In this document: positions 12,563-42,980 of the stretch, in pieces
Numbering within the stretch: position 1 is the stretch's first letter
Layout: every line of letters starts with the position of its first letter
Assembly (NCBI RefSeq): GCF_002208135.1
Contig: NZ_CP021646.1
Span: 2,544,001 to 2,608,000, forward strand
Source: Pseudoalteromonas piscicida
GTDB taxonomy: Bacteria; Pseudomonadota; Gammaproteobacteria; Enterobacterales; Alteromonadaceae
Direction of reading: 5' to 3'
DNA: 64,000 nucleotides
Program-made: the position numbers and the translations under genes
Notes under the pieces: generated by a model
Told to the model about the DNA's origin: nothing
The model's database searches: none
Seen by the model: the letters and a program-made list of their open reading frames with translations, nothing else

Positions 12563-12790
12563 TTAGAGTTCAGGTTTTGTCGGCCAAACGACCTGATCCG
12601 GAGATTCAAAACTTTGAGGCAAATCTCGCAAAGCCTGACGATAGTCTTTTAAAGGCTGAGGTACTTGGCCATCCATTTCTTGATACTTTAATGCCATCCA
12701 ATCCGTAGCTCTGAGGTAGGCATCACGCAAAGCTCGTGCTGTTTCCCATTCATCGAATTCAGTTCCTTCAATGCTCACTTGATCTAACAT
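12563..12790 (-). CDS. Tail fibre assembly chaperone-like protein, cassette 1
   Basis: Start taken at the ATG at 12790 (MLDQVSIEG), which leaves 2 bp after the upstream fibre stop; GGGAGAAC is upstream. The 75 residues match the phage tail assembly chaperone pattern: ARALRDAYLRATDWMALKYQ ... PLKDYRQALRDLPQ. Such proteins assist folding or attachment of the adjacent fibre. It closes cassette 1. Confidence 0.8.
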   Translation of the reverse strand: MLDQVSIEGTEFDEWETARALRDAYLRATDWMALKYQEMDGQVPQPLKDYRQALRDLPQSFESPDQVVWPTKPEL

Positions 12791-12792
12791 TT

Positions 12793-13620
12793 TTAGTTCT
12801 CCCAACTAGGTTGTGTATGAGTAATCCGATCGGCACAGGGTTGGCCATTACTTGATGTGTACTTTCCACTCACAGTAACCGCCTTAGTTGCACCACAATG
12901 ATAACGCGTATCTACTTTCATGGTGATCCGAGCTAGCCCACTGTACCCTTTACCTATTTTTCTAAAATAGATTGGGATCGTAGCCCCTTCCAAATCTTTA
13001 GAAATCTCAATTTCTTGAGCCTCGTTATCTGGCTCTGAAATAAACAACTTCAGAGCACCATTCCTAGATACTTTTTTAATTTCAAGCTGACCCGATACAC
13101 AGTCATGATATGACGTCCCCGTAAACTGAATTTGATCTGCATAGTGAGGTGAGGCGAACATGCCCCTATGAGCCATAATGAAGTCCAACTTAAAATAGTC
13201 GCCTTGTCCACCAAAGCCACCATTGCCAGAAAACTCTAGCATGTTTACGTAATATGGAGGCTTAGGTGTACCACATCTTGGAAAGTCAGAGTCAGGACCT
13301 GTTGCGTCTGAAGAATAACTACCAGCACTTAAGTAACCTCGAAAAAAGAAGCTCTTTTCATTACCATTTACAGTAACTGGCAAACCGTTAATTTCTTGAG
13401 TATATTGATCTTTCCATTGATTAAACTGTTCTTCGGCTTGCTCTAATTGATTATTAATACTCGTAATTTCACCCGCTACTACATTTTTAGTATGCGTCAC
13501 CGTTTCCGATAAAGTACTTTGAATAATCCCAACCTGATCTTCAACCGTTTGGCACAGTGCATTGGCACGTGTGGCAACCTGGCTCAGGCGCTCCGTCATG
13601 GTTAAATTGTCATTTGACAT
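12793..13620 (-). CDS. Tail fibre/receptor-binding protein, cassette 1
   Basis: 275 residues. The first ~90 form a helical coiled-coil-like segment (MTERLSQVATRANALCQTVEDQVG...) followed by a beta-rich C-terminal half with aromatic and Gly-rich patches (FRGYLSAGSYSSDATGPDSD, HRGMFASPHYADQIQFTG), as in adhesive fibre tips. It sits between the H protein and its chaperone-like partner. The role is inferred from position and architecture; the receptor is unknown. Confidence 0.7.
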   Translation of the reverse strand: MSNDNLTMTERLSQVATRANALCQTVEDQVGIIQSTLSETVTHTKNVVAGEITSINNQLEQAEEQFNQWKDQYTQEINGLPVTVNGNEKSFFFRGYLSAGSYSSDATGPDSDFPRCGTPKPPYYVNMLEFSGNGGFGGQGDYFKLDFIMAHRGMFASPHYADQIQFTGTSYHDCVSGQLEIKKVSRNGALKLFISEPDNEAQEIEISKDLEGATIPIYFRKIGKGYSGLARITMKVDTRYHCGATKAVTVSGKYTSSNGQPCADRITHTQPSWEN

Positions 13621-13629
13621 AGTGTTTCC

Positions 13630-14382
13630 TTATTGATGCTCAAGATTGGTTAATCTAATTTCTTGATTGGTTTGGCGGTTCATGGTGTCTAGCTGTACCG
13701 TCGTCACACTGGCAAGTTCTGCGTTAAATAAGCCATGGAATGCTGCTACGCGATTATCTAGCCGAGCGGCATGTGTTGTATCTAATCGTGTCACTTCACT
13801 GGTGAGCAATTGTTTCAGCTCACTTAGCTCCGTTTCCTGTTGTTGCAAACGAAATTCCTGTTTGATTTGCCGATGCATCGTATCTAGCTGCGTTAGCGTC
13901 ATTTCGGCCAGCTCTTTGTCGACGATCAGATTGAGATTGTCGACCCCCAGTTTTACCTCGATACTCTCACTAGGCAGTTGTGCCAAACTTAGCGTTAACC
14001 ACTGTAGTACTTTGACGTCAGGTGTGCGGTAGCCAAGTGTGGTGTTGGCTTTTGAGTAAACCCCCAGCAAAATCAGCTCCGGCTCACCGCTTGCGTCTAC
14101 TTCGCCGCTATCTAAATAAACACCAATTTCTCTGATGGCATATTCAAGTGGTGCGTCGAATTTGCCTGCAATTTTAAGGCTCGTACTTTCACCGTCTTGA
14201 TAGTCGCTGTCGGCAATAGCTACACGCTCTTTAAGGCTGCGTAGCTCAGTTTGATTTTGTGATGGCGTATAAGCGGCATCGCCAAACGCCATATGGCTGA
14301 TTTGCCCCTTAAAGCCTCGCGCTTGAGCGCTGAGCAGGGCATCAAGTCCCGCATGGGTAAACTGCAGCGTTAGTGCAGACAT
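13630..14382 (-). CDS. Phage tail-collar fibre protein H1 (DUF3751-type N-terminus), cassette 1
   Basis: 250 residues. The first ~150 carry the tail-collar fibre domain: LQFTHAGLDALLSAQARGFKGQI, then MAFGDAAYTPSQNQTELRSL, and AIREIGVYLDSGEVDASGEPELILLGVYS. This domain joins fibres to tail protein I at the baseplate. The rest is helical with a duplicated short motif (LTQLDTMHRQIKQEFRLQ / TVQLDTMNRQTNQEIRLT). The start overlaps the I1 stop by one base. Confidence 0.88.
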   Translation of the reverse strand: MSALTLQFTHAGLDALLSAQARGFKGQISHMAFGDAAYTPSQNQTELRSLKERVAIADSDYQDGESTSLKIAGKFDAPLEYAIREIGVYLDSGEVDASGEPELILLGVYSKANTTLGYRTPDVKVLQWLTLSLAQLPSESIEVKLGVDNLNLIVDKELAEMTLTQLDTMHRQIKQEFRLQQQETELSELKQLLTSEVTRLDTTHAARLDNRVAAFHGLFNAELASVTTVQLDTMNRQTNQEIRLTNLEHQ

Positions 14383-15491
14383 TAAGTCGCTCCTTGTAAA
14401 TGATAATGTTGATATTGAAGTCGGTGCATACCACTGGCGAGTACCACTCCTTGCATTAACTCATCAGGATGAATGCCCATTCCTTGGCTGGTATGCATTT
14501 GTGCATTCAGCTGCTTTGCAACCGCAAACACACCTAAACTCACCTGCGTTTCATTAGGTAAAACACCTGCGCCTTCTGTATTTAGCATTTGATAGCCATA
14601 GTGATTTATATGGCCACATGCCCCCAATGCGGCTTTGCCTTGCTCAGGTTTTACCCCTAACCCCGACACTTGGGTATTGCTCAAACCCAAAGGCGCTTTG
14701 CCAATACCTGCTGCACCAATTTGCTCTTTAAGTGCAATACCCAATTGTAAATCAACATTGATAGCACCGCGTTTCACTGCGTTTACCACACAGCGAATAC
14801 GTTTGAGCATCTGAGAGGTCAACAATCCTTGTTGTCGGTCGTCCAAATTCTGATTAATAAGCGCCCAGATCTGTACAGTGCCAGGCAAACCACCTTCCTG
14901 CTGCCACCATTCCTTGATCTCGGTTTCAATATTGAGACTATCGAGCGCTTTTTGCAGCGCAAATGGGGTCCCCTTGCACTGATGAACCGTGAACGCATCC
15001 GTAATGACCTGGCGTTTAATCGCCACTGGCCAATGTTCATCCCACTCATCCACTGAGTAGTTCCACGCCAAAAAAGGCAGTAAAGGCTCAGGGCAAAGCT
15101 CCGGTTGCCAAAGACTCGTTAAGAGCAGCCGTGTATCGTTCAGTACACAAGCATCACGCAATTGGGTTCGTGCTTCATCATCCTTGAGGGAGAGCCCACT
15201 TAGTCCGACACTTATCGCTAGCCGCTCAAGTGCATCTCTTGGGAAAAACACTTGAGAATAAATAATTGGCAGCAATTTATTGCTTGATAAGCGTTTAATT
15301 GCGCTGCGTAAATCAAGACAATCGGCCTCCGTCAATGAGAGATAACGCGCGATTTCTACTAGCTCGTCATCGCTGCGCTGTTCAAGTTCTAAGGCCGCTA
15401 ATAAACCCGCTCGGATAGTTCGAGGTTTGACTTGCAGCTCTGCTAACCACTGCTCCAGCGTTGACGCATTATGAGGTAAAAGCTTAGTCAT
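14382..15491 (-). CDS. Tail protein I1 (P2 gpI-like) with long C-terminal extension, cassette 1
   Basis: 369 residues, far above the ~180-200 of a standard gpI. The core motif is present: WQPELCPEPLLPFLAWNYSV, then DEWDEHWPVAIKRQVI and HQCKGTPFALQKALDSL. Residues ~240-369 form an extra Gly/Leu-rich beta-like domain (IGAAGIGKAPLGLSNTQVSG...). gpI links J to the fibre H. It overlaps J1 by 8 bp (ATGACTAA). The extension may be a fibre-docking or adhesin module particular to this cassette (inference). Confidence 0.88.
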   Translation of the reverse strand: MTKLLPHNASTLEQWLAELQVKPRTIRAGLLAALELEQRSDDELVEIARYLSLTEADCLDLRSAIKRLSSNKLLPIIYSQVFFPRDALERLAISVGLSGLSLKDDEARTQLRDACVLNDTRLLLTSLWQPELCPEPLLPFLAWNYSVDEWDEHWPVAIKRQVITDAFTVHQCKGTPFALQKALDSLNIETEIKEWWQQEGGLPGTVQIWALINQNLDDRQQGLLTSQMLKRIRCVVNAVKRGAINVDLQLGIALKEQIGAAGIGKAPLGLSNTQVSGLGVKPEQGKAALGACGHINHYGYQMLNTEGAGVLPNETQVSLGVFAVAKQLNAQMHTSQGMGIHPDELMQGVVLASGMHRLQYQHYHLQGAT

Positions 15492-16368
15492 CCAGCCCCC
15501 TCACCTTTACTCGCAAATCCATTTGCTGACAATACGCCACCTCAATATCTAGAGGTATAATGTCCTCACTTGGCGACTCCAACCTGATGTTTTCGACACC
15601 GGACAAAAACAAAGCGTTGCTAATGCCCGCTCGCGTGATCTGCCGACCAAGCTGACGTCTTTCAGTTAAGTAAGCGTCGAGCGCGGCTGAGGCACTGTCC
15701 ACAATCACCTCAGGCGACGGGCCAGGTAAAATTTCAAGTTCCGCTGCAATGTTAAACGTCAATACCTGTGGCTGCTTGATTGTGACTCTATCGCCAAGCG
15801 GTCTCACTTTAGAGACTTCAGGCTGAGTTGACGATTCGGGGGTAAAGGCGACGTGTAATTTATTCAGCAGCTCCGCGCTTAGTGTACCTTTCCCTATTCG
15901 ACTCAAGACGGTTAGTTCTATTTCACATGGCCTCGGACTATGAACTTGCACGTCGCAAATCTCATTACTCACCGACAATGCATGAAAGCGATAAGAGGCC
16001 GCGCTCCCTGCGGTATTCAGTCCATCAAACGCTAATTGCGTTCTCGCTCTTAAGCGCTCATCATCCTCATTCCCAAGCCTTGCAACATTAAACCTCGCTG
16101 CGATTGCGTCTAAGTCACTCCCTGAAGCACTCGCGAGCAAGTTCGCTTCTATTGCATCATTTAGTATGCTTTGCTGAGTCAGTCCTTGATATGCCATGAC
16201 TTCTAACAATTTAGTCAGAGGTTCACTTTCCAAGTTTACTACCGCTTGGAGTGCATCATCCTTTTGCAGCAATGCTTGCTTTAATGCTTCTAGACGCTGC
16301 TCAAAGTTTAAGGGTTTTAATACTTTAGGAATGGGCAACTGCGATAAGTCCAACCGCTCAAATGCCAT
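15484..16368 (-). CDS. Baseplate wedge protein J1 (P2 gpJ-like), cassette 1
   Basis: Start set at 16368 (MAFERLDLSQLPIPKVL) because AAGGAGG lies 5 bp upstream; 294 residues. The Baseplate-J pattern is clear: LESEPLTKLLEVMAYQGL near residue 55-75, SGSDLDAIAARFNVARL, DERLRARTQLAFDGLNTAGSAASYRFHAL, VRPLGDRVTI, and RAGISNALFLSGVENIRL. gpJ forms the wedge that holds the tail fibre network. It has its own promoter-leader block upstream (16392-16519). As the J nearest V and W it may be the default wedge. Confidence 0.93.
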   Translation of the reverse strand: MAFERLDLSQLPIPKVLKPLNFEQRLEALKQALLQKDDALQAVVNLESEPLTKLLEVMAYQGLTQQSILNDAIEANLLASASGSDLDAIAARFNVARLGNEDDERLRARTQLAFDGLNTAGSAASYRFHALSVSNEICDVQVHSPRPCEIELTVLSRIGKGTLSAELLNKLHVAFTPESSTQPEVSKVRPLGDRVTIKQPQVLTFNIAAELEILPGPSPEVIVDSASAALDAYLTERRQLGRQITRAGISNALFLSGVENIRLESPSEDIIPLDIEVAYCQQMDLRVKVRGLDD

Positions 16369-16391
16369 CATCACCTCCTTGCTTTGCGCCA

Positions 16392-16425
16392 TAAAAAAAC
16401 CCACAGCAAACACTTGCTTGTGGGT
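16392..16425 (-). terminator. Intrinsic terminator in the leader of J1
   Basis: Stem ACCCACA/TGTGGGT (16399-16405 with 16419-16425), extended by an inner GCAA/TTGC pairing, and followed on the minus strand by seven Ts (16398-16392). It lies downstream of the promoter at 16476-16519 and upstream of the J1 start, so transcripts from that promoter must pass it. It also blocks read-through from cassette 2. The same block recurs before J2. Confidence 0.85.
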
Positions 16426-16551: not shown

Positions 16552-17091
16552 TTAGCTGACAGCTGGTAGATACACATCAAATTCCATCGTTTCAAAAATA
16601 AGCCGAAAAGGAGCACCGATCCGCTCTAAGCCTCGATTGACTCGTTCTGCTGAGAGTAAATAATTACCACTAATATCGAACTCAAGAGCAAGAGTAAAAG
16701 TACCGTTTTCGACGTTTGCTATAAAACGTATATCTTCTACTGGCTGTGTGGCATTAACAACACGTTCAATCATAATCATAATTTCAATATCTGGTAACCC
16801 TGTAACACTTGCTGTAACTAGACACTTATCATTTTTCGCTACCCACCAAATATTACCTATTAGCCTGGCACTGGAAGAAGCAAGCGCTACATCCGATAAA
16901 ATTATTTCTGCATGTTCAACTGGGGGCTCTTCCATCAATGTTTGTGGGTGGAATTGCTTATTCTCTGGATTATAAATATCCCCTAAACTGGCATTGCTGC
17001 ATTGTATATAGTGTTCAACATCAACAGCTTCGTCGAACTGATAGCACCCAACAACTACATTGTCACTATCTACATGTGCGTAGTTATACAT
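16552..17091 (-). CDS. Hypothetical fibre-accessory protein, cassette 2
   Basis: Start taken at the ATG at 17091 (MYNYAHVDSDNVVVGCYQFDE), 179 residues, overlapping the preceding gene by 8 bp. The opening (protein describes a short 'VDSDNVVVG' strand followed by YIQCSNASLGDIYNPENKQF) resembles the N-terminus of tail fibre assembly/adhesin accessory proteins. The rest is beta-rich (VTASVTGLPDIEIMIMIERV). I do not recognise the family. It ends cassette 2. Confidence 0.65.
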   Translation of the reverse strand: MYNYAHVDSDNVVVGCYQFDEAVDVEHYIQCSNASLGDIYNPENKQFHPQTLMEEPPVEHAEIILSDVALASSSARLIGNIWWVAKNDKCLVTASVTGLPDIEIMIMIERVVNATQPVEDIRFIANVENGTFTLALEFDISGNYLLSAERVNRGLERIGAPFRLIFETMEFDVYLPAVS

Positions 17092-17422
17092 ACTCAATAA
17101 CCTCCCATGACACTGGCACATACCGATCCCAAATCGGCATTGACGAGCCCCCCATGTACATATCAACTCTATTCACTATCTTAAGTGTTGTACTATCCAC
17201 GAGTTCACAATATATAGCGTCAGCCCAGCCACCAAACTCACTGCTAGAGTCACTCGTCCTCTTCGCCCCATAGTAAGCAGATGACAGCATGTTGACGACT
17301 GTCTTATTAGTATCAACTTCCGGCAGCGTTATTATTCCGCCATTTCTCTCACTCCCATTATACTTACCTCTAAATACTCGCTTCACTCCTCCACCAACTA
17401 AACTGCTCACAGGTGTAGCCAT
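17084..17422 (-). CDS. Hypothetical small protein of cassette 2
   Basis: 112 residues from the ATG at 17422, which overlaps the stop of the long fibre gene. Sequence features: KRVFRGKYNGSERNGGIITLPEVDTNKTVVNMLSS, a motif seen in small proteins that accompany tail fibres, then a Trp/Tyr-rich second half (YMGGSSMPIWDRYVPVSWEVIEYV). No catalytic motif. A fibre-tip cap or accessory role is only suggested by its place. Confidence 0.65.
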   Translation of the reverse strand: MATPVSSLVGGGVKRVFRGKYNGSERNGGIITLPEVDTNKTVVNMLSSAYYGAKRTSDSSSEFGGWADAIYCELVDSTTLKIVNRVDMYMGGSSMPIWDRYVPVSWEVIEYV

Positions 17423-20400
17423 CACTGCATCTCCCAATTCTTTTCAGCATTTAATATAAAAGTTAAAGTTAGGTTTAGGTCGTATACAATCTGTGTATCT
17501 GTGACGACCTTTCCTTGCTTCGCCATCAAAATAACCTCACTCGATATACCATCTACTACTATTGTAGGCGTAGCCCCCAAACGCTTAGAAACAACAATCA
17601 CGGCGTCTTCTGGCGTTTCTGCAACTGGTGGTAGAGTGAATGTACCACTCGTTTTTAGGTGTACATTGCTATGCGCGGGTATAACACCACTTACCAGCGG
17701 CTTTTTCCTTTCTCCGACTAGGTACTCATCAACGTTGCCTGAATGTATAGAGGTGAATATTGGCTTTTTAAAACCGCCTTCAGGCTCCGCCTCTTGCGAT
17801 TCGTTTGTATGAAGTTTAATTGAATTGGAACTACAATCTGTGCCTGACATCAACGCTGAAGCGCCAGTAAATGTCCCAAATCTAGCCCAAACGGTAAACC
17901 ATGTATTTTGTCCTGACACATCTTCACTGGTAACTTTCAAGTCGCCTATTAGGCTACTACCAGTATCGGAAACACAATGGTTGTACGCAACCACATTTAA
18001 GTTATTGGCTGACCCGTCATTTGCTTTTGTAACATATATCGTTGCACCACCGCTTTGGTCGTTAAAGCCCGCTCCATAACCTCTAGTTCCAGCGAGATTA
18101 ATCAACCAACGATAAGAGTCGTTTGTGTTGCTGGCATAAAATGAAGCGACCTTATACCAGCGAACTACATTTGAAGTGCTTTTGACTACATTCCAATCTC
18201 TGACGTTCGTATTACCAGTATGAAGTACATATTGCCCACAGTACTTAAATTCCCTTGGACTGACGACAATACCTTTATTGCCATCCCATGGTGTCTCACC
18301 TAATCCTAGATAAGCATGCGCGCCGTCCTCTTTTCCGTTACTGGCATAGATACCTGCACTACCGACTCTCTGCTGTTTAGTGTCGGAATAAACATGGAGA
18401 CCAACAGCGTTAGGGTTTGGAACAAGCGAGCCGCTAAATGAACTTCCTTGCTTACTGAAGACAGTATCTGGGAATGTCCCACCACCGATATCTGACGCTG
18501 TGGGTTTATAACCTTCGTGGTAAACAGCTTTACCGTTAATATCGAAGTTGCCAAAGTGATCGAATTGATAGTAAGCACCTGTTTTAGTGCTTTGAACTCT
18601 AAATTCATTTCCATTGTCACCTTCAGTACTACCAACATACTTGAGCTGCCAGCTGTACATCCCATTACCAATTTCATGCCAAGCATCAGCATCATCTACT
18701 AACCTAGAGGCAAGTGAAGTTAGAACACCAGCTTTCTCAAATTGTAGGGGCTTTGTTAGCTTGCCTGTCACCTCATCAAATGACGGCTTATGCCCTTCGT
18801 GGTAAACACGTTGGTTGTAACTTGAGCCAGCGTAAATTTCCCCTTTTACGTGCACGGGTTTGCCGAAGTGGAACTTTGGAGTACTAGTATAAAAATGACA
18901 CCAATCTTGATTTTGGGAGCCAATTTCTAAATAGCCATGAGGTGTTACAACCTTCAGGGAATCATTATAACCTTTAGATAGCTTGGTTTTGTAATCCCCA
19001 AAACGAATTTCGCTACGAAAACAAACCCATGTCGACGTCCAATCCATCTGCATAGCCCAGTTATTTGGTATATTATCTGAACCAAGCAGCCCCATGCCTA
19101 TGTAACTTAATCCATCCCCGGTGTAAGAGATGTGTAACGATGCAGCATTGCTCCTGCCACTTTCTCCAATTGATATTCCTGCTGCCTGCTCATCATTAAC
19201 ACTCCCTTCTGTGTTGCTTTTGAGTGTTAACCACGGATTGTTTTTGGTGATGGTGATATCACCAAAAAAGCTCCAGTTACCTTGAGCGTACACTCGCTGC
19301 CAATCTGTACCATAATTGATATAAAGGTTATCTGTGGCGCCAACGAGTGCTCTTTTTTCTCTTATTTTTAGGTCTTGAACACCATTGGTATCTACAAAAG
19401 ACCTTTCGAACCTATCAAGCTTGGTGCTTTTAGGGTGATATTTAGCAGACAATAAAGTTCCGTTTTCTTCAAAAGAAGCAGCCTTAACATTAGCCCTAAA
19501 CTCCCAGTTATTGTTTTCAACAAAATTTCTCGCTGTCCAGTGTTCAATGCCGTACGCTCTTCTAAAAAAAGTAAAGAAGTCTGCGCCAGCGCCAGTTGTG
19601 GCAGGCGAACCATCACCATTGTACTCTATACCACCGCCGTGTGATGGGCTTTGGCCTACATAGACTGTACCTGTTGATTGAGCACCTGCAACGGGTGAAA
19701 ATACATTTAAGACAGCTCTGCCACCATCATCGGCTTGGATGTTTACTGTTGTGTTGGTGCCATTATCAAAGGTTGCGTTTCTGGTGGATAGTCCAGACTT
19801 CCTTAGCGACATCCATTCAGAATAACTAGTTCCTGAGCGGTGCCGCCACTTAAAGTATTCATTAGCGTTATCGGATGTTTCAAAGAATAGATAACTATCG
19901 GCGTCTGAGTCAGCGTCGTTCTTAAATCCAATTTTCGCACCATCGGTATTTTTCGACCAAATAATATCTTGGTCTGCAAGATTTATAGACTCACCCTTGG
20001 CAACAGCACCAATATCTGCAGGTGTTGGTTTGTTATATGTCGAGTAAGTATTCGCGAAAAATTCAAATGGATTAGCATTTCCCTCTGATTGGGTCGCTAT
20101 CCAACATTTAAATGCAAATGAGTATGTGCCGATGTCATGGGGGTTTCTAAATGTAGGCACATTATCAATAATTTCTATTGACGGATGATTATACCTATTC
20201 GTGTTTCCATAAATCGTATTTGCACTCCATGTCGAACCATATTTTGCAAAACGGCCTACAAAGTTAGTGTTTGTCGACGTTCCATCCGTCAAACCAAATA
20301 CCAGAATATCGCACGCGGTATCGGGCAAATCAGGAAAGGGTTTTGACTCGCCAGCGCCAAGTCTAAGCTCAAACGTACGGTCAAAGAAGTTCGCTGATTG

Positions 20401-20886: not shown

Positions 20887-20893
20887 ATGATCC

Positions 20894-21445
20894 TTACTGT
20901 TTAGATAACGGATAAACCGTGGTTGATGTTGCACTACAAGAAACAGTTCGAGTGGAAAGAGCAAGGTTACTCTGTAAATTCATTTGGAGCTGATAATCCA
21001 CAGATTTTCGCTTTGCTCTGTCGATTAATTTTCTGGTTTCTCGGATCAGAGGTAAATCGATCCCCCTGTGAGAAATAAATACATCAACTTTAAATGTACC
21101 AGCGGGTGCCATAGGGGTTTGCTCAAACCACTCGGTGATTTCGGCGCCCATATCGAAGTGAGATAGCGATTGTATAATTGCATACCGTGTACCTAAGTAC
21201 TTATGCTGCTCAAAGCTATCAGCAATCACTTTACGTTTTACCGATTCGTGCCAGTTTTCATCCCATTCTTTTACGCCTTGACTCCATGCCAACCAGGGAA
21301 GGAATGGCAAGGGACAGTGAAATGGACTCCATAGAGTGGAAAGCTTGCTGATTTCATCGCTCAATAATAAAAAGATTAAGCTATTCGCTTCTAGTATTGC
21401 GTGACTCAGCTTATTTGGTGGTTGGGTGTCTTCACTCTCACTCAA
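20894..21445 (-). CDS. Tail protein I2 (P2 gpI-like), cassette 2
   Basis: 183 residues, the normal gpI length. The family core is present: LWSPFHCPLPFLPWLAWSQG, VKEWDENWHESVKRKVIADS and HKYLGTRYAIIQSLSHF, then TEWFEQTPMAPAGTFKVDVFI. It overlaps the J2 stop by ATGA. It is the minimal version of I in this locus, lacking the extensions seen in I1, I3, I4 and I5. Confidence 0.9.
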   Translation of the reverse strand: MSESEDTQPPNKLSHAILEANSLIFLLLSDEISKLSTLWSPFHCPLPFLPWLAWSQGVKEWDENWHESVKRKVIADSFEQHKYLGTRYAIIQSLSHFDMGAEITEWFEQTPMAPAGTFKVDVFISHRGIDLPLIRETRKLIDRAKRKSVDYQLQMNLQSNLALSTRTVSCSATSTTVYPLSKQ

Positions 21446-22347: not shown

Positions 22348-22370
22348 TGCACCCTCCGGTACTAAACAGA

Positions 22371-22407: not shown

Positions 22408-22455
22408 CTTGGAGATTGGAAACCTGTGCTTGTTAACTTTCTCAAGCATAGGTCT

Positions 22456-32720: not shown

Positions 32721-32746
32721 TGAGAGTTCCATTTATTTGGGGAGTA

Positions 32747-35656: not shown

Positions 35657-36193
35657 TTACACTCCTAGCTGTAATAGTCTGTCGTTGAATTGAATTTGTC
35701 GGTGATTCGCTTGAATTTGCGCACTCAGTTGTTGGGTTTGTGCCACCAGCATGTCGAGAAATTCGCCGGCATAGAAAAGCGTTAAATCGCCTGTGGTATT
35801 AATCGTGATAGCGTCTACGGGTGCAGCACTTAACAGCAGATCAAACCCTTGTACGATTTGTGCAATGGGTGTTTGATAAAAAAGTACATTTTGCGGGTGA
35901 GACCAAACGGCAAACAAAGTGCCATCGGCAAGATAAAAACCCACTTCTCGCACCGCATACTCAGCATCGTCAATAAAATGTCCGGTAATATGAAATTGTC
36001 CGTCACCAACAACTTGCCCGCCGGCAATCGCCACGCGATTTTTTTCGCCTCGCAGCCTGGTTTGGCTACGAGACGGCGTATAGCCAGAAGTGCCTACCGC
36101 AATCGCGCTAATATCAATGGTAAAACCATTAGCTTTGGCATTAACGGCCGCGTTTAATCCCGCCTGCGTAATAAGCGGCGTAAATTGTTCCAT
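35657..36193 (-). CDS. Phage tail-collar fibre protein H4, cassette 4
   Basis: 178 residues from the ATG at 36193 with AAGGAATG upstream. Collar landmarks: ITQAGLNAAVNAKANGFTIDISAIAVG, YTPSRSQTRLRGEKNRVAI, YAVREVGFYLADGTLFAVWSHP. It ends in a short helix (QIQANHRQIQFNDRLLQLGV) that would join the fibre encoded next. Collar-only form. Confidence 0.88.
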   Translation of the reverse strand: MEQFTPLITQAGLNAAVNAKANGFTIDISAIAVGTSGYTPSRSQTRLRGEKNRVAIAGGQVVGDGQFHITGHFIDDAEYAVREVGFYLADGTLFAVWSHPQNVLFYQTPIAQIVQGFDLLLSAAPVDAITINTTGDLTLFYAGEFLDMLVAQTQQLSAQIQANHRQIQFNDRLLQLGV

Positions 36194-36206: not shown

Positions 36207-36255
36207 AGAGTCTGTTAATCTTCAAGTTTGTTTTGCAGCAGCTTTGTTTAGGTAT
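36207..36255. repeat. Remnant end of the ~315-bp element
   Basis: About 50 bp resembling, in the opposite direction, the end of the elements at 10296-10610 and 52277-52590 (AGGGCCTGTT, then TTCAAGTTTG and TTTTGCAGCAG with a few gaps). It lies between H4 and I4 and overlaps the I4 stop region, so it is an old truncated copy. Confidence 0.65.
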
Positions 36256-37001
36256 TAATAGCAATAAAACGACTGTCGCTGGATTTGGATAGCAAAGGGC
36301 GCTGCGTGAACATAAAGGCTAGAAGCACTTTTGAGATCAGAGCGCACTTCACCAGATATTTTGCCCACCCCTTGCAAAACAGAAGTACCAGCAAGATACG
36401 ACTGGCTTACATTTGCAACATTATCTGTGTGTTGAGGCATCCACGTTCGCTGGAGACTCGCAGACTGACTGACGGTATTGAGCGATAAGCTTGCACTTTG
36501 TTGTACGCCTACATGCAAACTAATTTGGCTGCGACATGGTTTTGTCATCACCACAGCTTGCCAAAGTTGTGCCTGCAACTTAGGAGTCAGTAGCGTGCTA
36601 CCAGCTGGATCTAGGTTCTGAGCGGCCAACGCAATGATCTGTGCAGAATGCGGCGTAAACGCGTGAGGATTTTCTTGTTGCCACCACTCTTTAAGCTCAA
36701 CTTTTGCAGCTAGAGTGGAGAGCGCGCTTTTTATTGCAGTAACCGTGCCTTTTATTCGATGATCGGGCACGCTATTCGCTATAATCTTGCGCTTCACTTC
36801 AACTGGCCAAGCGCTATCCCAAAAGTCCACGCTGAGTGCATCCGCAAGCCAAGGTAAAAAATGCTCGGGACATCGCCATGGATCCCAAAGACTACCAAGT
36901 GGAACAGGAGTCGCAGAAACTTTACTTAGCGCCTTTGCCAACGCATGCTCAAGCTTAGTGCTTGCGTGCGGTAATAGCGTATTAAATATCTCTTCCTGCA
37001 A
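36255..37001 (-). CDS. Tail protein I4 (P2 gpI-like), cassette 4
   Basis: 248 residues, overlapping J4 by 20 bp. It has the gpI core in its clearest form: LWDPWRCPEHFLPWLADALS, VDFWDSAWPVEVKRKIIANS, DHRIKGTVTAIKSALSTL, then LKEWWQQENPHAFTPHSAQI. Residues ~185-248 form a Ser-rich extension (SASLSLNTVSQSASLQRTWM) with tandem-looking short strands, as in I5. It ends inside the remnant element, which may have altered the C-terminus. Confidence 0.92.
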   Translation of the reverse strand: MQEEIFNTLLPHASTKLEHALAKALSKVSATPVPLGSLWDPWRCPEHFLPWLADALSVDFWDSAWPVEVKRKIIANSVPDHRIKGTVTAIKSALSTLAAKVELKEWWQQENPHAFTPHSAQIIALAAQNLDPAGSTLLTPKLQAQLWQAVVMTKPCRSQISLHVGVQQSASLSLNTVSQSASLQRTWMPQHTDNVANVSQSYLAGTSVLQGVGKISGEVRSDLKSASSLYVHAAPFAIQIQRQSFYCY

Positions 37002-37938
37002 TGTTTATCTCCACTTGTGTACAAAACGCTGCCTGCCAAGGGGTATTGATAATGTCGGCGGCGGGTGAGAGCAGCTCAACACGTTGCACACCTGCTTGGT
37101 GTAGCGCACTGTAAAGCCCAGACAACCGAATATCATGATTAAGTTTATGATGTGTTTTCAACCATTGCTGCACGCTTTGCTCTACCGTAGATCTCACGTT
37201 TTCTTCATCAGGGCCTGGATATAAATAAAGCGTGGCGCGGAGGGTAAATTCTTTTACCTCAGCTGAGAGTACTCGTGGCCTATCTGTCAGAGGCCTAATG
37301 TCTTCTTGAAACAAATGCTCTGTAATTGCTGTGATTTCGTCTTGATTTGGTATGCCATTGCCTCTATCTGTCAGCACCGTTATGGCAACATCCCCCGGCG
37401 CAGCATCTTGAAGCCTAGCGGCATGGCTACAATGCAGCAATTTCGTATGCTCTGGTACTAAGTCTGATAATGGCGGCTCGACCTGAAGCAGCTCAAACTC
37501 GGGAGACTCAACAAAAACATCCTTAACTTGAGGTAAGGCTTTAAGCGTGTGAAAACAATAAGCACCAATAGGCCCTGCCGTACTAAACCCTTCTAGTGCC
37601 AACTGAATACGCGCTCGAAAGCGCTCATCACTTTCCCCAGCTTCTCGTATCACCGCAAAACGATTACCCAAATAATCGAGTTCACTGCTCGTGGCTTTTG
37701 CCAGCAACACCTGCTGCGCGCCTTCATTAATTTGTTGACGTAATAGTAGCTCTCGATAAGCAAAGACTTCCATCAGCTTGACGATGGGGTCGCTAGGTAG
37801 TAGCTCAGAAAGTTCTGGGCAGGTGTGTTCTACGGCTTGTTTTAGTTCGTTATAAAGCGTTTTAAATTCAACGGGTTCAAGTAAATCGGATGCGGGTAAT
37901 TGACTAAGACTGACCGCACTGAAGTTAGTTAAAGACAT
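36982..37938 (-). CDS. Baseplate wedge protein J4 (P2 gpJ-like), cassette 4
   Basis: Start set at the ATG at 37938 (MSLTNFSAVSLSQLPASDLL), 318 residues. J landmarks: LPSDPIVKLMEVFAYRELLLRQQ, TSSELDYLGNRFAVIREAGE, DERFRARIQLALEGFSTAGPIGAYCFHTL, IRPLTDRPRVL, and GLYSALHQAGVQRVELLSP. Compared with J3 and J5 it carries about 35 extra residues after VFVESPE (ending near HCSHAARLQDAAPGD). No strong ribosome site is visible and a hairpin lies just upstream. Confidence 0.92.
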   Translation of the reverse strand: MSLTNFSAVSLSQLPASDLLEPVEFKTLYNELKQAVEHTCPELSELLPSDPIVKLMEVFAYRELLLRQQINEGAQQVLLAKATSSELDYLGNRFAVIREAGESDERFRARIQLALEGFSTAGPIGAYCFHTLKALPQVKDVFVESPEFELLQVEPPLSDLVPEHTKLLHCSHAARLQDAAPGDVAITVLTDRGNGIPNQDEITAITEHLFQEDIRPLTDRPRVLSAEVKEFTLRATLYLYPGPDEENVRSTVEQSVQQWLKTHHKLNHDIRLSGLYSALHQAGVQRVELLSPAADIINTPWQAAFCTQVEINIAGRDI

Positions 37939-37956
37939 AATGGGGCCTGTTGTAAG

Positions 37957-37982
37957 GCACCCAATCAAAAATGACTGGGTGC
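37957..37982 (-). other. Hairpin upstream of J4
   Basis: Inverted repeat GCACCCA/TGGGTGC (37957-37963 with 37976-37982) in the 59-bp gap between the end of cassette 5 and J4. It has no U-tract on either strand, so it is a weak terminator or an RNA-processing/attenuator structure. There is no dyad promoter here, unlike before J1 and J2. Confidence 0.5.
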
Positions 37983-37997: not shown

Positions 37998-38462
37998 TTA
38001 AGCGTTGCTTTGCAGTGCTTGACTTACGCCATTTGCACGCTCAGCGATTTCATGCATCACCTGAGCTTCACCTTTCACTTGGTATGGAAAAGTTAAGCTT
38101 CCCGATTGCACATCAGCGTGGATATGGCCAATTTTATCTTTAAGTCCGCTCACGGAAGCTCTAACGTCATCCAGTGATTGCGCGGTACTAAGTGAAGTAA
38201 CCAAACTGCTCAGCTCTTTCAGCAATAATTGAGCCGTGTCTGCCGTTGTACCGAGCAATGTGTCTGTGTCTGCAACTTGTTGAGCAATTTGCTCACGCGC
38301 AGATTGCTTGCTCTGAAGGGCTGTCTCAGCTGCACTAAGCTCTAGTGTGAAGGTTGTTCCCACTCCAAATGTATCTTCAACAAACTCTTGCGTTACAAAA
38401 TGTGGGGTTTTGGCGTCGTAGAACTTGTCAACAATTTGGTTATTTACTATTAGTTTTGCCAT
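37998..38462 (-). CDS. Small fibre-associated protein, end of cassette 5
   Basis: 154 residues: a beta opening (AKLIVNNQIVDKFYDAKTPHF), then helical (ETALQSKQSAREQIAQQVAD..., HIHADVQSGSLTFPYQVKGE). I do not recognise a family. It follows the second cassette 5 fibre by 11 bp, the same fibre-then-small-protein arrangement seen elsewhere in the locus. Confidence 0.6.
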   Translation of the reverse strand: MAKLIVNNQIVDKFYDAKTPHFVTQEFVEDTFGVGTTFTLELSAAETALQSKQSAREQIAQQVADTDTLLGTTADTAQLLLKELSSLVTSLSTAQSLDDVRASVSGLKDKIGHIHADVQSGSLTFPYQVKGEAQVMHEIAERANGVSQALQSNA

Positions 38463-38473
38463 TTTTATTCTCC

Positions 38474-39244
38474 TTAGTCGTAAGCATTTTGTGTAGCGTC
38501 ACCTAAATAGGCGAATTGTCCCCAACCGTCTAGCGGAACATCTCCAGTTACCACAGCAGGAAGGGCAATTTGAATCACGCCAGTCTCATCTTCTGGCTTC
38601 CCTTGACCATGAACATAAGGGTGACAATGGCTATATTGATTTCGACCGTAATAGATGGTTTTACCGCAAAGCTTTGCATCTTGATTTGCTTCTAAGCCTT
38701 CACACCACCAATTGTTTGGTACTGTCCCTCGAATATGCTTTACGATCGCCGCGACAGTGACCATTGTTGGTGCTCTAAAGTATTGATACATTAAATATGC
38801 ATATTGATCGGCATTACTTCCCCTTTTGTTGGGGTAATATTCCAGCTCCCAAATATTAAATTTACCTGCAAAGTATTTGGTGTCAGAATTAATTGCTCGT
38901 AAAAACTCTCTTGCAAGCGGCGTTCTTTGGTCTGTTTCGACTCCGGTTGTAACTGTTTCTAAAAGTCTCGCTTCTTTTACATAACCACCATTCCAAGAGT
39001 GTGGAAAAGTCCCTGCCTCATTGGGAATTAATGCTTGGTTTCTAGTCACGCGAAAATGCGACTGCTTTTTGCGGGCAGAGTCAAACCTTTGATCTATTTT
39101 GCCTAACTCCGCGTTGACTTTATTTTTTGCATCAACAACGCTGCTAGTTAAAGTCGCCGTAATATCTTGAATTTTATTATCGACGGTTGCGGTGAGGTCG
39201 TTTGACGCCTCAATCAATTTGGCAATATCTTGTTCTAATGCCAT
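38474..39244 (-). CDS. Tail fibre/receptor-binding protein B, cassette 5
   Basis: 256 residues. The stem (MALEQDIAKLIEASNDLTATVDNK) is almost the same as that of the fibre at 39696-40472, while the head is different (KYFAGKFNIWELEYYPNKRG, GRNQYSHCHPYVHGQGKPED). Shared stem plus divergent head suggests duplication and head swapping. It is separated from fibre A by an intrinsic terminator (39315-39342). Confidence 0.75.
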   Translation of the reverse strand: MALEQDIAKLIEASNDLTATVDNKIQDITATLTSSVVDAKNKVNAELGKIDQRFDSARKKQSHFRVTRNQALIPNEAGTFPHSWNGGYVKEARLLETVTTGVETDQRTPLAREFLRAINSDTKYFAGKFNIWELEYYPNKRGSNADQYAYLMYQYFRAPTMVTVAAIVKHIRGTVPNNWWCEGLEANQDAKLCGKTIYYGRNQYSHCHPYVHGQGKPEDETGVIQIALPAVVTGDVPLDGWGQFAYLGDATQNAYD

Positions 39245-39370: not shown

Positions 39371-39685
39371 TTATTGCGGTTTTGGGTAGCGATTTTTAAT
39401 GGTGCTTCGCGCTTGCAGCCACGCAGTTTTTGCCGCTTGTGCTGCTTCACTCGCTTCACCAAATTCGGCCATTGCCGCTAAGTAATCGAAGGCAAGACCA
39501 TCTGACTCGCACTGGTAAGCAAAACTTCTAGCGTGCACACATTGCGCTGCAAGCTGAGCCTGCTTTGCCTCAGCTAGAATACTCGGAATATCAGCGCTGG
39601 CTACGCCTAAGTCTGCCAGTGTTTTTTCATCTGCCGGCACATTAATCAGTTCATCATCACCGATTTTTAAGGTTTTAATTTCCAT
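39371..39685 (-). CDS. Small fibre-associated protein, cassette 5
   Basis: 104 residues, opening IKTLKIGDDELINVPADEKT, then an Ala-rich helix with LAFDYLAAMAEFGEASEAAQ and a C-terminus TIKNRYPKPQ. It shares its ending with the 75-residue protein of cassette 4. Probably a fibre chaperone or connector. Confidence 0.65.
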   Translation of the reverse strand: MEIKTLKIGDDELINVPADEKTLADLGVASADIPSILAEAKQAQLAAQCVHARSFAYQCESDGLAFDYLAAMAEFGEASEAAQAAKTAWLQARSTIKNRYPKPQ

Positions 39686-39695: not shown

Positions 39696-40472
39696 TTAAG
39701 CTGTTGGTGGTGTGTATGGATGGTGTGCGTAAGGGATTGAGCTTAGTGTTGGTGCTAAGCGCCCGGCAAATGGAATTGGCTCTGCGTACCAACGAACAGT
39801 CCAACTATCCCAGCTTCTTGCATATAGATTCCGTCTCTCTTGATCGCTACCGTCATGGAACCATACGTCGCCTTTCCAGTTTTTAATAATTCGATATTTA
39901 AGACCGCCACCTCTTAAGTAAACCCCGCTATGAGTAGCACAGAATGCACCAAAGGCACCTTCTTCACCGCCACCATATAGATCTAAACTTGAGTCCGCTT
40001 TTTCGCGTTTGCAGTACATAGCAAAACTGGCATGGCTTACGGTTGGGTTATAACGCTCATGAAAGCGTTTAACATGTAGAAAATTTGAATCACCGTGCCA
40101 AGCCGTTGCATTTCCTTCCAACTCAAGTAAAAGTGCCGCTTGGTGAGGGCTTGTGGTGTTTAAGGGTTTTGTGTCACCATTCCATGAATACTGGCGAGCA
40201 ATCGTTAACTTACTCACTCCCGCAGCATTACTGGGCATAACCCACCACACCGGATAAAAATAATCCTTTGAACCACCGATAAAAATATCCTGAACATAGC
40301 GTGTTTCAGGCATCGCTTCTTGAATAAATTTGTCGACATCTTGCTCTTTTTTTGCAATACGCGTGTCAAAGGCAGCCATTTGGTTGTCGAGCTGCTGCGC
40401 TTTGTTATCCACCACTGCCGTTAAGGCATCGGTAGACTGAATGAGATTAGCAATATCTTGTTCTAATGCCAT
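39696..40472 (-). CDS. Tail fibre/receptor-binding protein A, cassette 5
   Basis: 258 residues. The short helical stem (MALEQDIANLIQSTDALTAV) is shared with fibre B. The head is beta-rich with Trp/Gly/Tyr patches (YPVWWVMPSNAAGVSKL, GGGEEGAFGAFCATHSGVYL, VRWYAEPIPFAGRLAPTLSS). It starts 9 bp after H5. Confidence 0.75.
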   Translation of the reverse strand: MALEQDIANLIQSTDALTAVVDNKAQQLDNQMAAFDTRIAKKEQDVDKFIQEAMPETRYVQDIFIGGSKDYFYPVWWVMPSNAAGVSKLTIARQYSWNGDTKPLNTTSPHQAALLLELEGNATAWHGDSNFLHVKRFHERYNPTVSHASFAMYCKREKADSSLDLYGGGEEGAFGAFCATHSGVYLRGGGLKYRIIKNWKGDVWFHDGSDQERRNLYARSWDSWTVRWYAEPIPFAGRLAPTLSSIPYAHHPYTPPTA

Positions 40473-40481: not shown

Positions 40482-41027
40482 CTATAAAATTCCTTTGTCC
40501 ATCAACTCAAACTTCTGTTTAAGATGACGAGTCATATTGTTAATTTGCGCAGCGCCTAGCTTGGCAAGTTCAGGGGCGATAAGAATATTCAGATTAACGC
40601 CGTTATCGACGATGGTAACGGCGTCGGCAGGTACGCCCGTTAGCACCAAATCAAAAGCAAGAAGTAAATCGACTTCCGCCGATTTATAAGCAATGGGTCT
40701 ATCTGGTGAAGAATACACCGCAAATAGCACCTCTTGTGTTTGGCCATTTGCTTCGCTTTCGATATAAAAGCCCACTTCATTGACCCAAAAGTTGTGATCG
40801 GTATCATCAATCACACTCATATGGATTTGGGCATTCCCCTTATCTTCGCCACTTGCCACCATAATGCGGTGGACTTCTTGTTGTAGCTGTCGGCGGCCTT
40901 GATCTGGCGTATAGTTGCCAGTGCCAAGCCCTACCTTGCTGATCTTCGCTTGAAAGCCATTTTTTTGGGCGTTAAATACTGCTTCCAAACCCGCGGTGGT
41001 GATGGTCGGCCGTAAAATCGTGCTCAC
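40482..41027 (-). CDS. Phage tail-collar fibre protein H5, cassette 5
   Basis: Start chosen at the GTG at 41027 (MSTILRPTITTAGLEAVF), with GGAG about 9 bp upstream; the longer frame has no collar homology before it. 181 residues. Landmarks: TAGLEAVFNAQKNGFQAKIS, GNYTPDQGRRQLQQEVHRI, FWVNEVGFYIESEANGQTQE, VLFAVYSS. Collar-only form. The 205-bp gap upstream (to I5 at 41233) has no gene; it contains ATACCAATAGGTA. Confidence 0.87.
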   Translation of the reverse strand: MSTILRPTITTAGLEAVFNAQKNGFQAKISKVGLGTGNYTPDQGRRQLQQEVHRIMVASGEDKGNAQIHMSVIDDTDHNFWVNEVGFYIESEANGQTQEVLFAVYSSPDRPIAYKSAEVDLLLAFDLVLTGVPADAVTIVDNGVNLNILIAPELAKLGAAQINNMTRHLKQKFELMDKGIL

Positions 41028-41232
41028 AGCACCTGTCTCCTTTTGTTGAGTGATATCAACCCGCATCAATACACAGCTCGTTTGATAAGCTGGTTTATGA
41101 AGCACATTGATATGAAATGACAGCAATGGGTTTTATACCAATAGGTACTACCGCTGGGTAAACGCTGATGACATCAATTGAAGTGTTTATTCGCTATTCC
41201 AATAGCGGTTGTAGGCTAAATTGCTGCGATGG

Positions 41233-42129
41233 TTATACGTGGCAGTAGAATCTAGCCACTTGAAAACGACGATTAGTAAAGTGCAAAGTGCTCGCAAGTT
41301 CCGTCGTAAAGTCAAACTTGGCGGCAGGCAATCTTTGCTCATTGGTTAAATAAATTCGGCTAACCACATGACGGCGATTATTTAAGTGAAGCCCTACTCG
41401 CGCAGAGCTCTGTAAATACGCATTCACATGCTGGCTTTTCATATACCGGCCTGTCGCTGCGATTTGCTTATTGCTTGCCAATGCAAATGCCGCTGATACG
41501 GTGGCAGCGGGTGCTTTTATGGCCTCAGTTTGCGCTGACTTTCTCGCAACCTGCAAACCACTGGCAATAGAGGCAGTTTGCAGTGTTAGGCTCATTTTGG
41601 CACCAACTAGAAAATCGAAGTGGGCACGTTTTGGTTTAGTACTATCAGTAACATCTTTAACGGCTTGGTAAAGCTCTGGGCTTAAGATCACAGCGTCACT
41701 GGTATACGGAATTTCATTCGCCCACGCGATAAACATAAAGGTATGCGGCTGCTTTGATTGATAAGGCGCCAGTGCTATATCATCAATTTCTTGAAACCAT
41801 TCAAAAAACTCAACACTTACCCCTAGCGCTGCCAATGCTCGCTTTACCGAGCCAACAGTACCTTTGTGCTTATGTACTTTGACCGAATTGGCGATAAATG
41901 CCCGTTTAGTATCTACCGGCCAGCTTTCATCCCACTCATCTACTGATAAAGACCATGCAAGCCAAGGTAATAAAGCCTCTGGGCAGGTCTCTGGGTGCCA
42001 TTGCTTGCCCACATATTCTGGGATAGTTGGTGTTACCTCAAGCTTACTCGGTAAGTCTTCAGCTTGCTCAGCAATAGTGCGAACCAGCTTTGATGTGCCA
42101 GGTGGCAGTAATTTATGATAACTTGTCAT
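41233..42129 (-). CDS. Tail protein I5 (P2 gpI-like) with C-terminal extension, cassette 5
   Basis: 298 residues. Core: QWHPETCPEALLPWLAWSLS, VDEWDESWPVDTKRAFIANS, VHKHKGTVGSVKRALAALGV, FEWFQEIDD. Residues ~190-298 form a beta-rich, Ala/Ser-rich extension ending FTNRRFQVARFYCHV, similar in plan to the ends of I3 (LNVHCSRFQVVLPE) and I4. Confidence 0.92.
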   Translation of the reverse strand: MTSYHKLLPPGTSKLVRTIAEQAEDLPSKLEVTPTIPEYVGKQWHPETCPEALLPWLAWSLSVDEWDESWPVDTKRAFIANSVKVHKHKGTVGSVKRALAALGVSVEFFEWFQEIDDIALAPYQSKQPHTFMFIAWANEIPYTSDAVILSPELYQAVKDVTDSTKPKRAHFDFLVGAKMSLTLQTASIASGLQVARKSAQTEAIKAPAATVSAAFALASNKQIAATGRYMKSQHVNAYLQSSARVGLHLNNRRHVVSRIYLTNEQRLPAAKFDFTTELASTLHFTNRRFQVARFYCHV

Positions 42130-42137
42130 AGCTCACC

Positions 42138-42980
42138 TTACTCCGTTGGAAAATGTAATTGCACATCGCGACAGTAAGCTGCATTTTTAGCACTTGGTGA
42201 GAGGTCGTCATGCATCGAGCGAAGCTTCACTTTTCTTACTCCTCCTTGATGCAAGGCATCAATAAGTCCCGAACTGGGTACTTCTTTCCCGAGCAAGTAA
42301 TGTGATTGAATAAAGTTTTCAATTGCACGATGGATGGACACTTTAACCTGCTCCGTATTAATACCTGCATTAAAGTAAATATCGGCTTCAATCGTGTAGG
42401 CCGTTGGCTCTACCAAATGCACGCGTACAAGGTCCGTAAGCGGTCTAACATCTTCGTCGTTGAGATAACGTAACACCTCTGTTCTCAGTGCTTCTTTATC
42501 TTCCAAAGTCACCACATCAGCAACTGGTAACACATGGACTTCAACAATGCCCGGTAATGTTGACTCAACAAATACGTCTTTCACTTTTGCAGAAGCGGTA
42601 AACGCGTGGTACTGATAAGCACCAGACGTGCCTCCCATTGAGTGACTTTCAAGAGAAAGTGGGATCCGCAAACGATAGCGTTCATCCGATTCCGCTTCTT
42701 CTCGCGCTACACCGAACAAAACACCCAAATGATCCAAATCACTGCCCGTGGCATATGCCACCATCACAGATTGTGCGGCGTCATTTACACGCTGCCTCAG
42801 CAATACCTCACGATAGGCAAAAAGCTCCATCAGCTTTATTGCTGGATCTGAGGGAAGAAATGGATAATCTGGAAACTGCTGTTGCAATTGCGCTTCTAAT
42901 TCCTGATAAATAGCTTCATAGCTGACTGTCTCCAACACATCAGGTGCAGATAGGCGCGTCAAATCAATAGCATTATTCAT
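42138..42980 (-). CDS. Baseplate wedge protein J5 (P2 gpJ-like), cassette 5
   Basis: 280 residues. J landmarks: LPSDPAIKLMELFAYREVLLRQR, YATGSDLDHLGVLFGVAREE, DERYRLRIPLSLESHSMGGTSGAYQYHAF, VRPLTDLVRV, SGLIDALHQGGVRKVKL. It is the first J transcribed after the lysis genes, 60 bp downstream of them, and has no dyad promoter of its own. It is closest to J4 in the wedge core. Confidence 0.93.
   Translation of the reverse strand: MNNAIDLTRLSAPDVLETVSYEAIYQELEAQLQQQFPDYPFLPSDPAIKLMELFAYREVLLRQRVNDAAQSVMVAYATGSDLDHLGVLFGVAREEAESDERYRLRIPLSLESHSMGGTSGAYQYHAFTASAKVKDVFVESTLPGIVEVHVLPVADVVTLEDKEALRTEVLRYLNDEDVRPLTDLVRVHLVEPTAYTIEADIYFNAGINTEQVKVSIHRAIENFIQSHYLLGKEVPSSGLIDALHQGGVRKVKLRSMHDDLSPSAKNAAYCRDVQLHFPTE

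Follow-up and report, generated by a model that had tools for sequence, protein, structure and literature searches.

Among the closest described relatives of the locus considered here are the R2 pyocin of Pseudomonas aeruginosa (PDB 6u5b/6u5k) and the tail of phage P2, with which it has in common a sheath, tube, spike, W, J (Tri1) and I (Tri2), the pyocin being headless as well. Phage P2 has one J-I-H set, in the order V-W-J-I-H, whereas the locus, which runs on the minus strand throughout from position 44736 to position 3183 of a 64,000-nucleotide stretch of the Pseudoalteromonas piscicida genome (NZ_CP021646.1, positions 2,544,001 to 2,608,000; hereafter the window), has five sets, with these kits first and the core last.

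Branching in the Ackermannviridae proceeds via spike proteins, not wedge kits. Their branched tail-spike complex places several receptor binders on one tail (available portion of PMC11414711), and tailocins with multiple fibre genes are already known (available portions of PMC13280938 and PMC10598620), with as many as 13 genes for fibres and their assembly in Xenorhabdus (PMC13280938). Xenorhabdicin and the tailocins of Pseudomonas chlororaphis and Pectobacterium, as far as the accessible accounts go, resemble the present locus in drawing several receptor specificities from one locus, but the extra genes of multi-fibre tailocins are fibres, with one each of BW1, BW2 and BW3, whereas here J and I are multiplied (PMC13280938, same portion). 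No description of multiplied wedge sets in a tailocin, or of this Pseudoalteromonas locus, was recognised in the accessible parts of the open-licence literature.

The reading preferred here, with moderate confidence, is that one core is served by four conserved wedge-and-fibre kits and one optional kit, which are interchangeable, so that a lysing cell would release the same barrel with different ends. Co-expression of the kits, their docking on one W, the completeness of kits other than kit 3, homotypic rings and a wider target range are what we infer within this reading.

Five wedge sets and their conservation in Pseudoalteromonas

The genome (5.3 Mb in two contigs) has, by profile search, five J and five I genes, every one of them inside this locus. 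The J genes (Baseplate_J, PF04865) lie at 15484, 21442, 33675, 36982 and 42138, as a preliminary description of the window had reported, and they and the five I genes (Tail_P2_I, PF09684) are open frames on the minus strand that score above the Pfam cut-offs. That description spoke of five J-I-H sets and regarded one set as normal for P2-type tails. The norm agrees with P2 itself and with a J2-based search, which would miss any J too distant from J2, in which 371 phage records had 371 J places, one each (175 plasmids had 187). The five J-I pairs stand, but set 3 is a different kind of kit, and its H falls below the PF12571 cut-off (19.9 against 23 bits) that those of sets 1, 2, 4 and 5 exceed.

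Sets 5, 4 and 1 consist of J, I, a short H with a collar-fibre N-terminal domain (178-250 amino acids, aa), one or two fibre tips (256-296 aa) and small partner genes. In set 5, the baseplate wedge proteins J5 (42138..42980; PF04865 68 bits; R2-pyocin PA0618 E 9e-42) and I5 (41233..42129; PF09684 118 bits; PA0619 E 4e-15), homologues of Tri1 and Tri2, are followed by the adaptor H5 (40482..41126; PF12571 34 bits), a tip with the shared N-terminal anchor (39696..40472; phrog_10758), a putative small chaperone-like gene (39371..39685; phrog_5714, unlabelled), a second tip (38474..39244; phrog_8748) and a small, presumably tip-associated gene that recurs beside tips in other loci (37998..38462). 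Set 4 comprises J4 (36982..37968; PF04865 77 bits), I4 (36255..37001; PF09684 129 bits), the adaptor H4 (35657..36193; PF12571 42.6 bits) and a tip (34765..35655; phrog_8748). Set 2 pairs J2 (21442..22449; PF04865 74 bits) and I2 (20894..21445; PF09684 113 bits) with a long H, the 1180-aa fibre H2 (17422..20964; PF12571 91 bits), after which come two small open reading frames (ORFs) of no family that are chaperone-like by place only (17084-17437 and 16552-17166, together 16552..17437). Set 1 has J1 (15484..16413; PF04865 73 bits; PA0618 E 7e-45), I1 with a long N-terminal extension (14382..15491; PF09684 113 bits over 120-239), the adaptor H1 (13630..14382; PF12571 30 bits), a tip (12793..13620; phrog_22727) and a tail fibre assembly protein (12563..12805; phrog_4912 84 bits). 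Of the wedge proteins used as queries (J1, J3, J5 and I5), J1 and J5, and J3 by way of a profile, match the R2-pyocin Tri1 protein PA0618 over the greater part of their sequence, and I5 aligns partly with the Tri2 protein PA0619.

A Baseplate_J search of 108 genomes of the genus gave a match in 56, of which 43 had at least three J, 13 had one and none had two. Thirty loci were compared, namely that of the window and those of 29 of the other 42 genomes with at least three J (13 of the 43, partly on split contigs, were left out), and all 30 have three to five J-I sets, which places the five-set arrangement beyond chance. A hidden Markov model search combined with a FastTree tree assigned J5 to 30 loci, J1 to 30, J3 to 29, J4 to 26 and J2 to 13; the corresponding I classes, one per locus, number 30 (I5), 30 (I1), 29 (I3), 27 (I4) and 13 (I2). 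J5, J4, J3 and J2 each make up one side of a branch in this tree, from which J rows shorter than 200 aa, namely the two pieces of a split J4 and a fragment of 79 aa, were excluded; the set 2 J, first named by its neighbourhood, is a 13-row clade. The J1 class is named by place, as the last J of each locus; together J1 and J2 are one 43-row clade, inside which J1 alone is not a clade, and the two may stem from an old duplication. An I gene lies directly downstream of a J of its own class in 128 of 129 cases, the exception being the J4 that is split in two ORFs.

The order of the sets is constant over the 30 loci except for the position of J2: J5-J4-J3-J1 in 15 loci, the same with J2 before or after J3 in ten, and five others without an intact J4 or J3. 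Four near-universal kits in constant order are what would be expected of an obligate composite baseplate, in which every kit has a fixed place in an enlarged, layered structure and all are needed for any particle. This alternative is unlikely, and it is opposed by the loss or breakage of J4 in four of the 30 loci (two ORFs in one, the 79-aa fragment in another, not seen in two) and of J3 in one. The core is single throughout: V, sheath, tube and E have one copy in each of the 30 loci, and W is found in 29, no locus having two W. U and D are missing from four of the fetched stretches, and one genome has D as two pieces.

The ratio of nonsynonymous to synonymous substitution (dN/dS) lies between 0.03 and 0.24 in 48 of 62 comparisons of J and I from seven genome pairs, one comparison being saturated (0.015) and 13 not computable. 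Because the classes are orthologous in 30 loci and dN/dS is low, the sets are judged from their sequences to be maintained, four of them near-universal and one optional, which bears out the earlier impression drawn from the window.

Departures from the common plan were also seen. The loci of two genomes (G066 and G072; L136-L139, L143-L145) are lengthened between sets by long stretches that encode unrecognised proteins of about 960-1450 aa and long proteins like H2, but no additional J-I pair. In P. denitrificans (L040) and Pseudoalteromonas sp. NBT06-2 (L042), the set next to the spike, a place taken by set 1 in other genomes, best matches J2-I2.

Set 3, the exchange of tips and the origin of the kits

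Set 3 begins with J3 (33675..34517; PF04865 49 bits) and I3 (32747..33673), which matches positions 1-95 of 139 of Tail_P2_I only (46.8 bits) and whose profile found no match in a search of solved structures. They are followed by the weak H3 (32172..32732), a fibre-like protein of 1027 aa (29085..32168; phrog_14489, unlabelled), whose role is presumed, an adjoining DUF4376 protein (28370..29101; 28.6 bits), a baseplate wedge 3/tail-fibre-network protein (27826..28341; BW3TFN 182 bits), a DUF4815 fibre-network gene (25853..27815), the second half of the network protein (24660..25856), a probable receptor-binding protein (22940..24409; phrog_24331, unlabelled; N-terminal match in phage HJ05) and its putative small partner (22511..22936; phrog_26358, unlabelled). 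The wedge-3 protein is homologous to gp105 of Listeria phage A511 (6hhk, E 4e-11) and to ORF64 of a Staphylococcus phage (9tic, E 9e-7), while the DUF4815 protein, by way of an intact relative, and the protein that follows it align to residues 9-631 and 731-1096 of ORF65 (9euf_0). Wedge-3 and network genes occur in 29 of 30 loci, being missing only from the locus without J3, and in 17 of the 29 J3-bearing loci the wedge-3 gene comes directly after I3.

Set 3 thus has wedge-3 and fibre-network proteins in common with the baseplates of the Herelleviridae (Listeria A511 gp105/gp106; Staphylococcus ORF64/ORF65, PDB 9tic/9euf), and it alone of the five sets has the gp105-like wedge 3 and the gp106-like network protein. 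The core, in contrast, matches P2-type families and not those of the SPO1/A511 type, and the network protein is encoded by two genes in the loci examined. In A511, gp105 is the proximal fibre and carries gp108 and gp106, and gp106 gives the baseplate its double layer (available portions of PMC9863714 and PMC11406892). An obligate composite baseplate would draw some support from this second layer (PMC9863714, same portion), but kit 3 is elsewhere the sole wedge kit. Aeromonas phage HJ05 (OQ594355, deposited as a complete phage genome of 79 kb) and a locus of Alteromonas sp. a30 have the order W-J3-I3-DUF4815-second half-receptor protein, as in set 3, and the a30 locus also has BW3TFN; HJ05 has one J in the whole record, and a30 has one P2-type J plus a weak match below the cut-off in a 1684-aa frame. 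Since a J3-type set near W, one of five here, is the only wedge kit in both, gene content shows set 3 to be a complete baseplate end that works alone elsewhere. All 45 listed genes of the HJ05 stretch are annotated as hypothetical, although homologues of W, J, I, DUF4815, E, U and D are recognisable.

The other sets are likely to be complete baseplate ends of the same sort. Further loci whose sheath is related carry just one J, the best match of which is J4, J5 or, in one locus, J1. The presence of one set in the one-set loci was judged from about 21 kb each; a check of 12 genomes and one phage (L086, L071, L089, L090, L091 and L097 being excluded) found one to six J, the extras lying on other contigs except for a pair of weak matches on a single Veronia contig. 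In the tree, J3 falls together with the J of phage HJ05, Alteromonas a30, Azospirillum, Tepidimonas and Extensimonas, apart from the other classes. Origin of the kits by duplication of one set within the genus was rejected, as a single clade of all Pseudoalteromonas J fails the approximately unbiased test (p 2.6e-5) on a quick tree of 26 rows from 6 loci against 16 outsiders, with rows of our own choosing and the group tested after the first tree had been seen.

Outside the genus, no locus with three or more I was seen in samples of the order and phylum. Matches to I were found in 68 of 394 genomes drawn from the order and 52 of 398 from the phylum, both counts including Pseudoalteromonas, and three or four I in one genome outside the genus lay far apart or on separate draft contigs, where broken assembly could hide clusters. 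Scans of viral contigs gave 5 and 11 loci from 11 contigs, all of the same kind; going by names only, ten of the contigs are isolate-genome-like and one is metagenome-like. A search of phages at the DNA level with 24.7 kb of the locus gave no match.

Between the window and its four nearest relatives, J1, J3, J4 and J5, their I, and H1, H4 and H5 are 93-100% identical, apart from one I3 at 87%. Only an N-terminal part of two tips matches in these relatives: 25-37% of the set 1 tip, which is replaced beyond its anchor, and 18% of the set 4 tip (about the first 52 aa). Of the set 5 tips, the second has given way to another in two of these relatives, whereas the first is full-length in all four, at 77-97% identity. 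The four window tips are alike in the N-terminal anchor, and across the 30 loci the partial matches of four tips, among those listed, start at one of residues 1-10 in 25 of 25, 38 of 39, 22 of 23 and 25 of 25 cases and usually end at residues 40-80; only the N-terminus of the set 3 receptor protein is common to some loci. By these alignments, receptor-binding modules are exchanged in more than one kit. The tips of sets 1 and 4 have changed while J-I-H remained almost the same, but not every tip behaves in this way.

Recombining tips might also be taken to mean that the locus is a reservoir or relic, with one set used and the others silent recombination stores or leftovers of other tails. Terminator-like hairpins between sets, which recur in a 30-locus scan without a shuffled control and whose number in the window is not clearly above shuffles, and the breakage of two kit or core genes in the window strain, point the same way. 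This is very improbable, as a tip store would need no J and I of its own, and the J-I pairs are complete, with low dN/dS in every class and with four kept in 26-30 of the 30 loci.

Core, lysis genes and flanking DNA

The locus opens with a helix-turn-helix regulator (44458..44736; Pfam HTH_31 27 bits; homologue in 28 of 30 loci) and a small gene, followed by a lysozyme-type endolysin (43681..44100; Phage_lysozyme 70 bits), a holin (43286..43693; GTA_holin_3TM 45.8 bits) and a conserved 82-aa lysis-region protein (43041..43289; TssO match below the cut-off; homologue in 29 of 30 loci), which precede sets 5-4-3-2-1; gaps between the listed ORFs of the kit region are at most about 250 bases. After the sets and a conserved protein beside the spike (11906..12484; phrog_23383, unlabelled) comes the core: spike V (11316..11909; Phage_base_V 53 bits), the gp25-like W, presumed to be the single docking protein of J and I (10677..11012; phrog_43 134 bits; 82-100% identical in nine relatives), the sheath (9064..10278; PF17482/PF04984; 98-99% identical to those of P. 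flavipulchra, P. peptidolytica and P. piscicida), the tube FII (8555..9064; PF04985 156 bits), the tail assembly chaperone E (8294..8551; PF10109 67 bits), a tape measure named by place and length (4882..8038), U (4436..4867; PF06995 92 bits) and the hub D (3183..4193; Phage_GPD 23 bits, below the cut-off). Family matches, with W from PHROG, confirm the reported single copies of sheath, tube, spike, W, U and, below the cut-off, D, and E is single too; for the single X, a 71-aa ORF (4195..4410) is a plausible candidate.

The contractile sheath, tube, spike, gp25-like W, J and I, together with lysozyme and holin genes within the locus, are those of an R-type tailocin. The tail is headless, as proposed: no capsid, portal or terminase family scored above cut-off among the scanned ORFs of the locus, and a weak minor-head PHROG match at 37998-38462 (E 3e-4, 21 bits) is taken as chance. 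A prophage with its head elsewhere in the genome was rejected, since the P2-type capsid family PF05125, the one capsid family searched for across the genome, is absent from it. By its gene content, the locus probably encodes a chromosomal headless R-type (P2-like) tailocin, with five sets in place of the one J-I-H set per core that is usual, though not strictly defining.

An AAA+ ATPase is a hallmark of extracellular contractile injection system loci of the Afp/PVC/MAC type, and no AAA family was found in the Pfam-scanned ORFs of the locus, a few ORFs having been scanned with PHROG only. The MAC (metamorphosis-associated contractile structure) arrays of P. luteoviolacea are a contractile phage-tail device of the same genus. 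Identity with that system was rejected on distribution only, the MAC genes themselves not being compared: in the available portion of PMC10286705, MAC is confined to P. luteoviolacea among the genomes compared, while the present sheath with an adjoining J-I-H set also occurs in P. flavipulchra, P. piscicida, P. rubra, P. aurantia and P. peptidolytica.

Promoter-like sites in two stretches of the locus are in no excess over shuffles (27 against 30.6 and 22 against 28.7), and terminator-like sites in the same stretches are not clearly above them (26 against 19.3, standard deviation 5.2; 24 against 19.0, standard deviation 4.3). Terminator-like hairpins on the minus strand lie in the set 5 tip array (39321-39342), before the wedge-3 gene (28332-28355) and between W and the sheath (10268-10295), with others at comparable positions in many loci of the uncontrolled 30-locus scan; they may step expression along the locus.

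The tape measure (6590-8038, 5682-6572 and 4882-5685) and the DUF4815 gene (27543-27815, 26458-27636 and 25853-26461) are each in three frames in the window strain and single ORFs in near relatives; the tape measure is one 1052-aa ORF in three of them, and its piece at 6590-8038 matches only positions 1-477 of 1052 of phrog_24596. A neighbour of the locus, a LodA-like lysine oxidase gene (980-2910, minus strand), is in two frames; relatives have at this place one unlabelled ORF of 655-659 aa. Three such broken genes within about 27 kb, with the five J and five I unaffected, suggest indel errors in the assembly as the likely cause, decay being possible.

On the other side, the locus is flanked by an ABC-F gene (45161-46825, plus strand), a homologue of which turns up in 22 of the 30 stretches retrieved, one or more of these being a weak match elsewhere; this suggests a fixed chromosomal site. 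Near the right end of the window (58716-63095, minus strand) are Mu-like phage early genes (GemA, DUF3164, an AAA ATPase and a weak integrase-core match); as the genome has no Baseplate_J beyond the five, the tail of such a phage, if any, would be of another type.

A presumed single docking protein for several kits

Among one-set P2-like phages (11 records, leaving out ENT90, with no sheath or tube in the stretch, HP1 and K139, with J annotated in another context and length, and 500465-1, with no annotation), J is as a rule no less conserved than W: the W minus J identity does not exceed +8 in 54 of 55 pairs, the exception being 186/EtG (+19, with other core proteins 96-99% identical). In Pseudoalteromonas at a tube identity of 70-90%, W is about 80-83% and J about 45-58% identical, with band medians of W minus J of +26 and +29 and a difference above 8 in 1252 of 1270 cells (at most 8 in 18), whereas 11 one-set loci with a related sheath have band medians from -8 to +11, below zero at the same tube identity. 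One W that seats several unlike triplexes would be held back while J is freer, and that W is better conserved, and J less well, than in tails with one set is in keeping with a docking protein common to several kits; it supports this arrangement without proving it. With the same reservation, the contrast favours interchangeable kits over an obligate composite, which would leave every J as constrained as usual.

Several points weigh against this interpretation. The pairs are not independent, and those matched in tube identity (70-90%) from one-set tails are few, 4 from P2-like phages and 13 from one group of six alphaproteobacterial loci; the related-sheath one-set loci reach their +11 at lower identities; close Pseudoalteromonas pairs (tube identity of at least 95%) have a gap of at most 8 in 111 of 275 cells; and exchange of J between lineages could inflate J divergence. 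Four kits kept in the same order are equally a prediction of the obligate composite, one set 5 tip is unswapped in all four nearest relatives, and the broken tape measure and DUF4815 genes may leave the window strain's own particles defective, unless they are assembly errors.

Under interchangeable kits, each kit would build its own (J)2-I triplex, which would attach round the spike to the one W that all kits share and bring its own adaptor and receptor-binding tip, kit 3 contributing an arm of wedge-3 and fibre-network proteins like that of the Herelleviridae, in place of a simple fibre or alongside one. After induction all kits, read in one direction, would be made together, and the lysing cell would release particles with a common barrel and differing ends that hit a wider range of cells. 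The two R2-pyocin entries contain 24 Tri1 and 12 Tri2 chains, on average 12 and 6 each, so that a ring of this type has room for one triplex per wedge, a further argument against an obligate composite. Most particles probably carry one kit: homotypic rings are likelier than mosaics, because J and I are inherited as class-matched pairs, J3 is far from the rest and wedges must fit round the ring.

Kits might nevertheless compete for the six wedge positions, so that several on one particle bind several receptors. Such mosaic rings are doubtful, given that class pairing and the distance of J3 make contacts between unlike neighbouring kits questionable, yet the single W of 29 loci, the reading of all kits from one strand with no recombinase, invertase or other switch gene among the scanned ORFs, and the 31 J positions identical across all five window J are in their favour. 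Taken more broadly, a mosaic or composite baseplate on single particles, with wedges of separate phage-tail lineages, one of them with a Herelleviridae-like network, set round one hub via a common W and reading several receptor classes, is a tentative possibility.

Tailocins described so far broaden their range by exchanging fibre genes or gaining more of them, whereas here the wedge ring itself, the link between receptor binding and contraction, is multiplied up to fivefold, and the multiplied state is kept across much of the genus. This makes baseplate modularity, the seating of unlike J-I triplexes by one W and the heteromeric ring open to test, and natural variants of the locus are plentiful among the named relatives, which are cultured strains. 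If the kits are used together, one Pseudoalteromonas cell could produce a single weapon fitted with tips of several kinds, each recognising its own targets.

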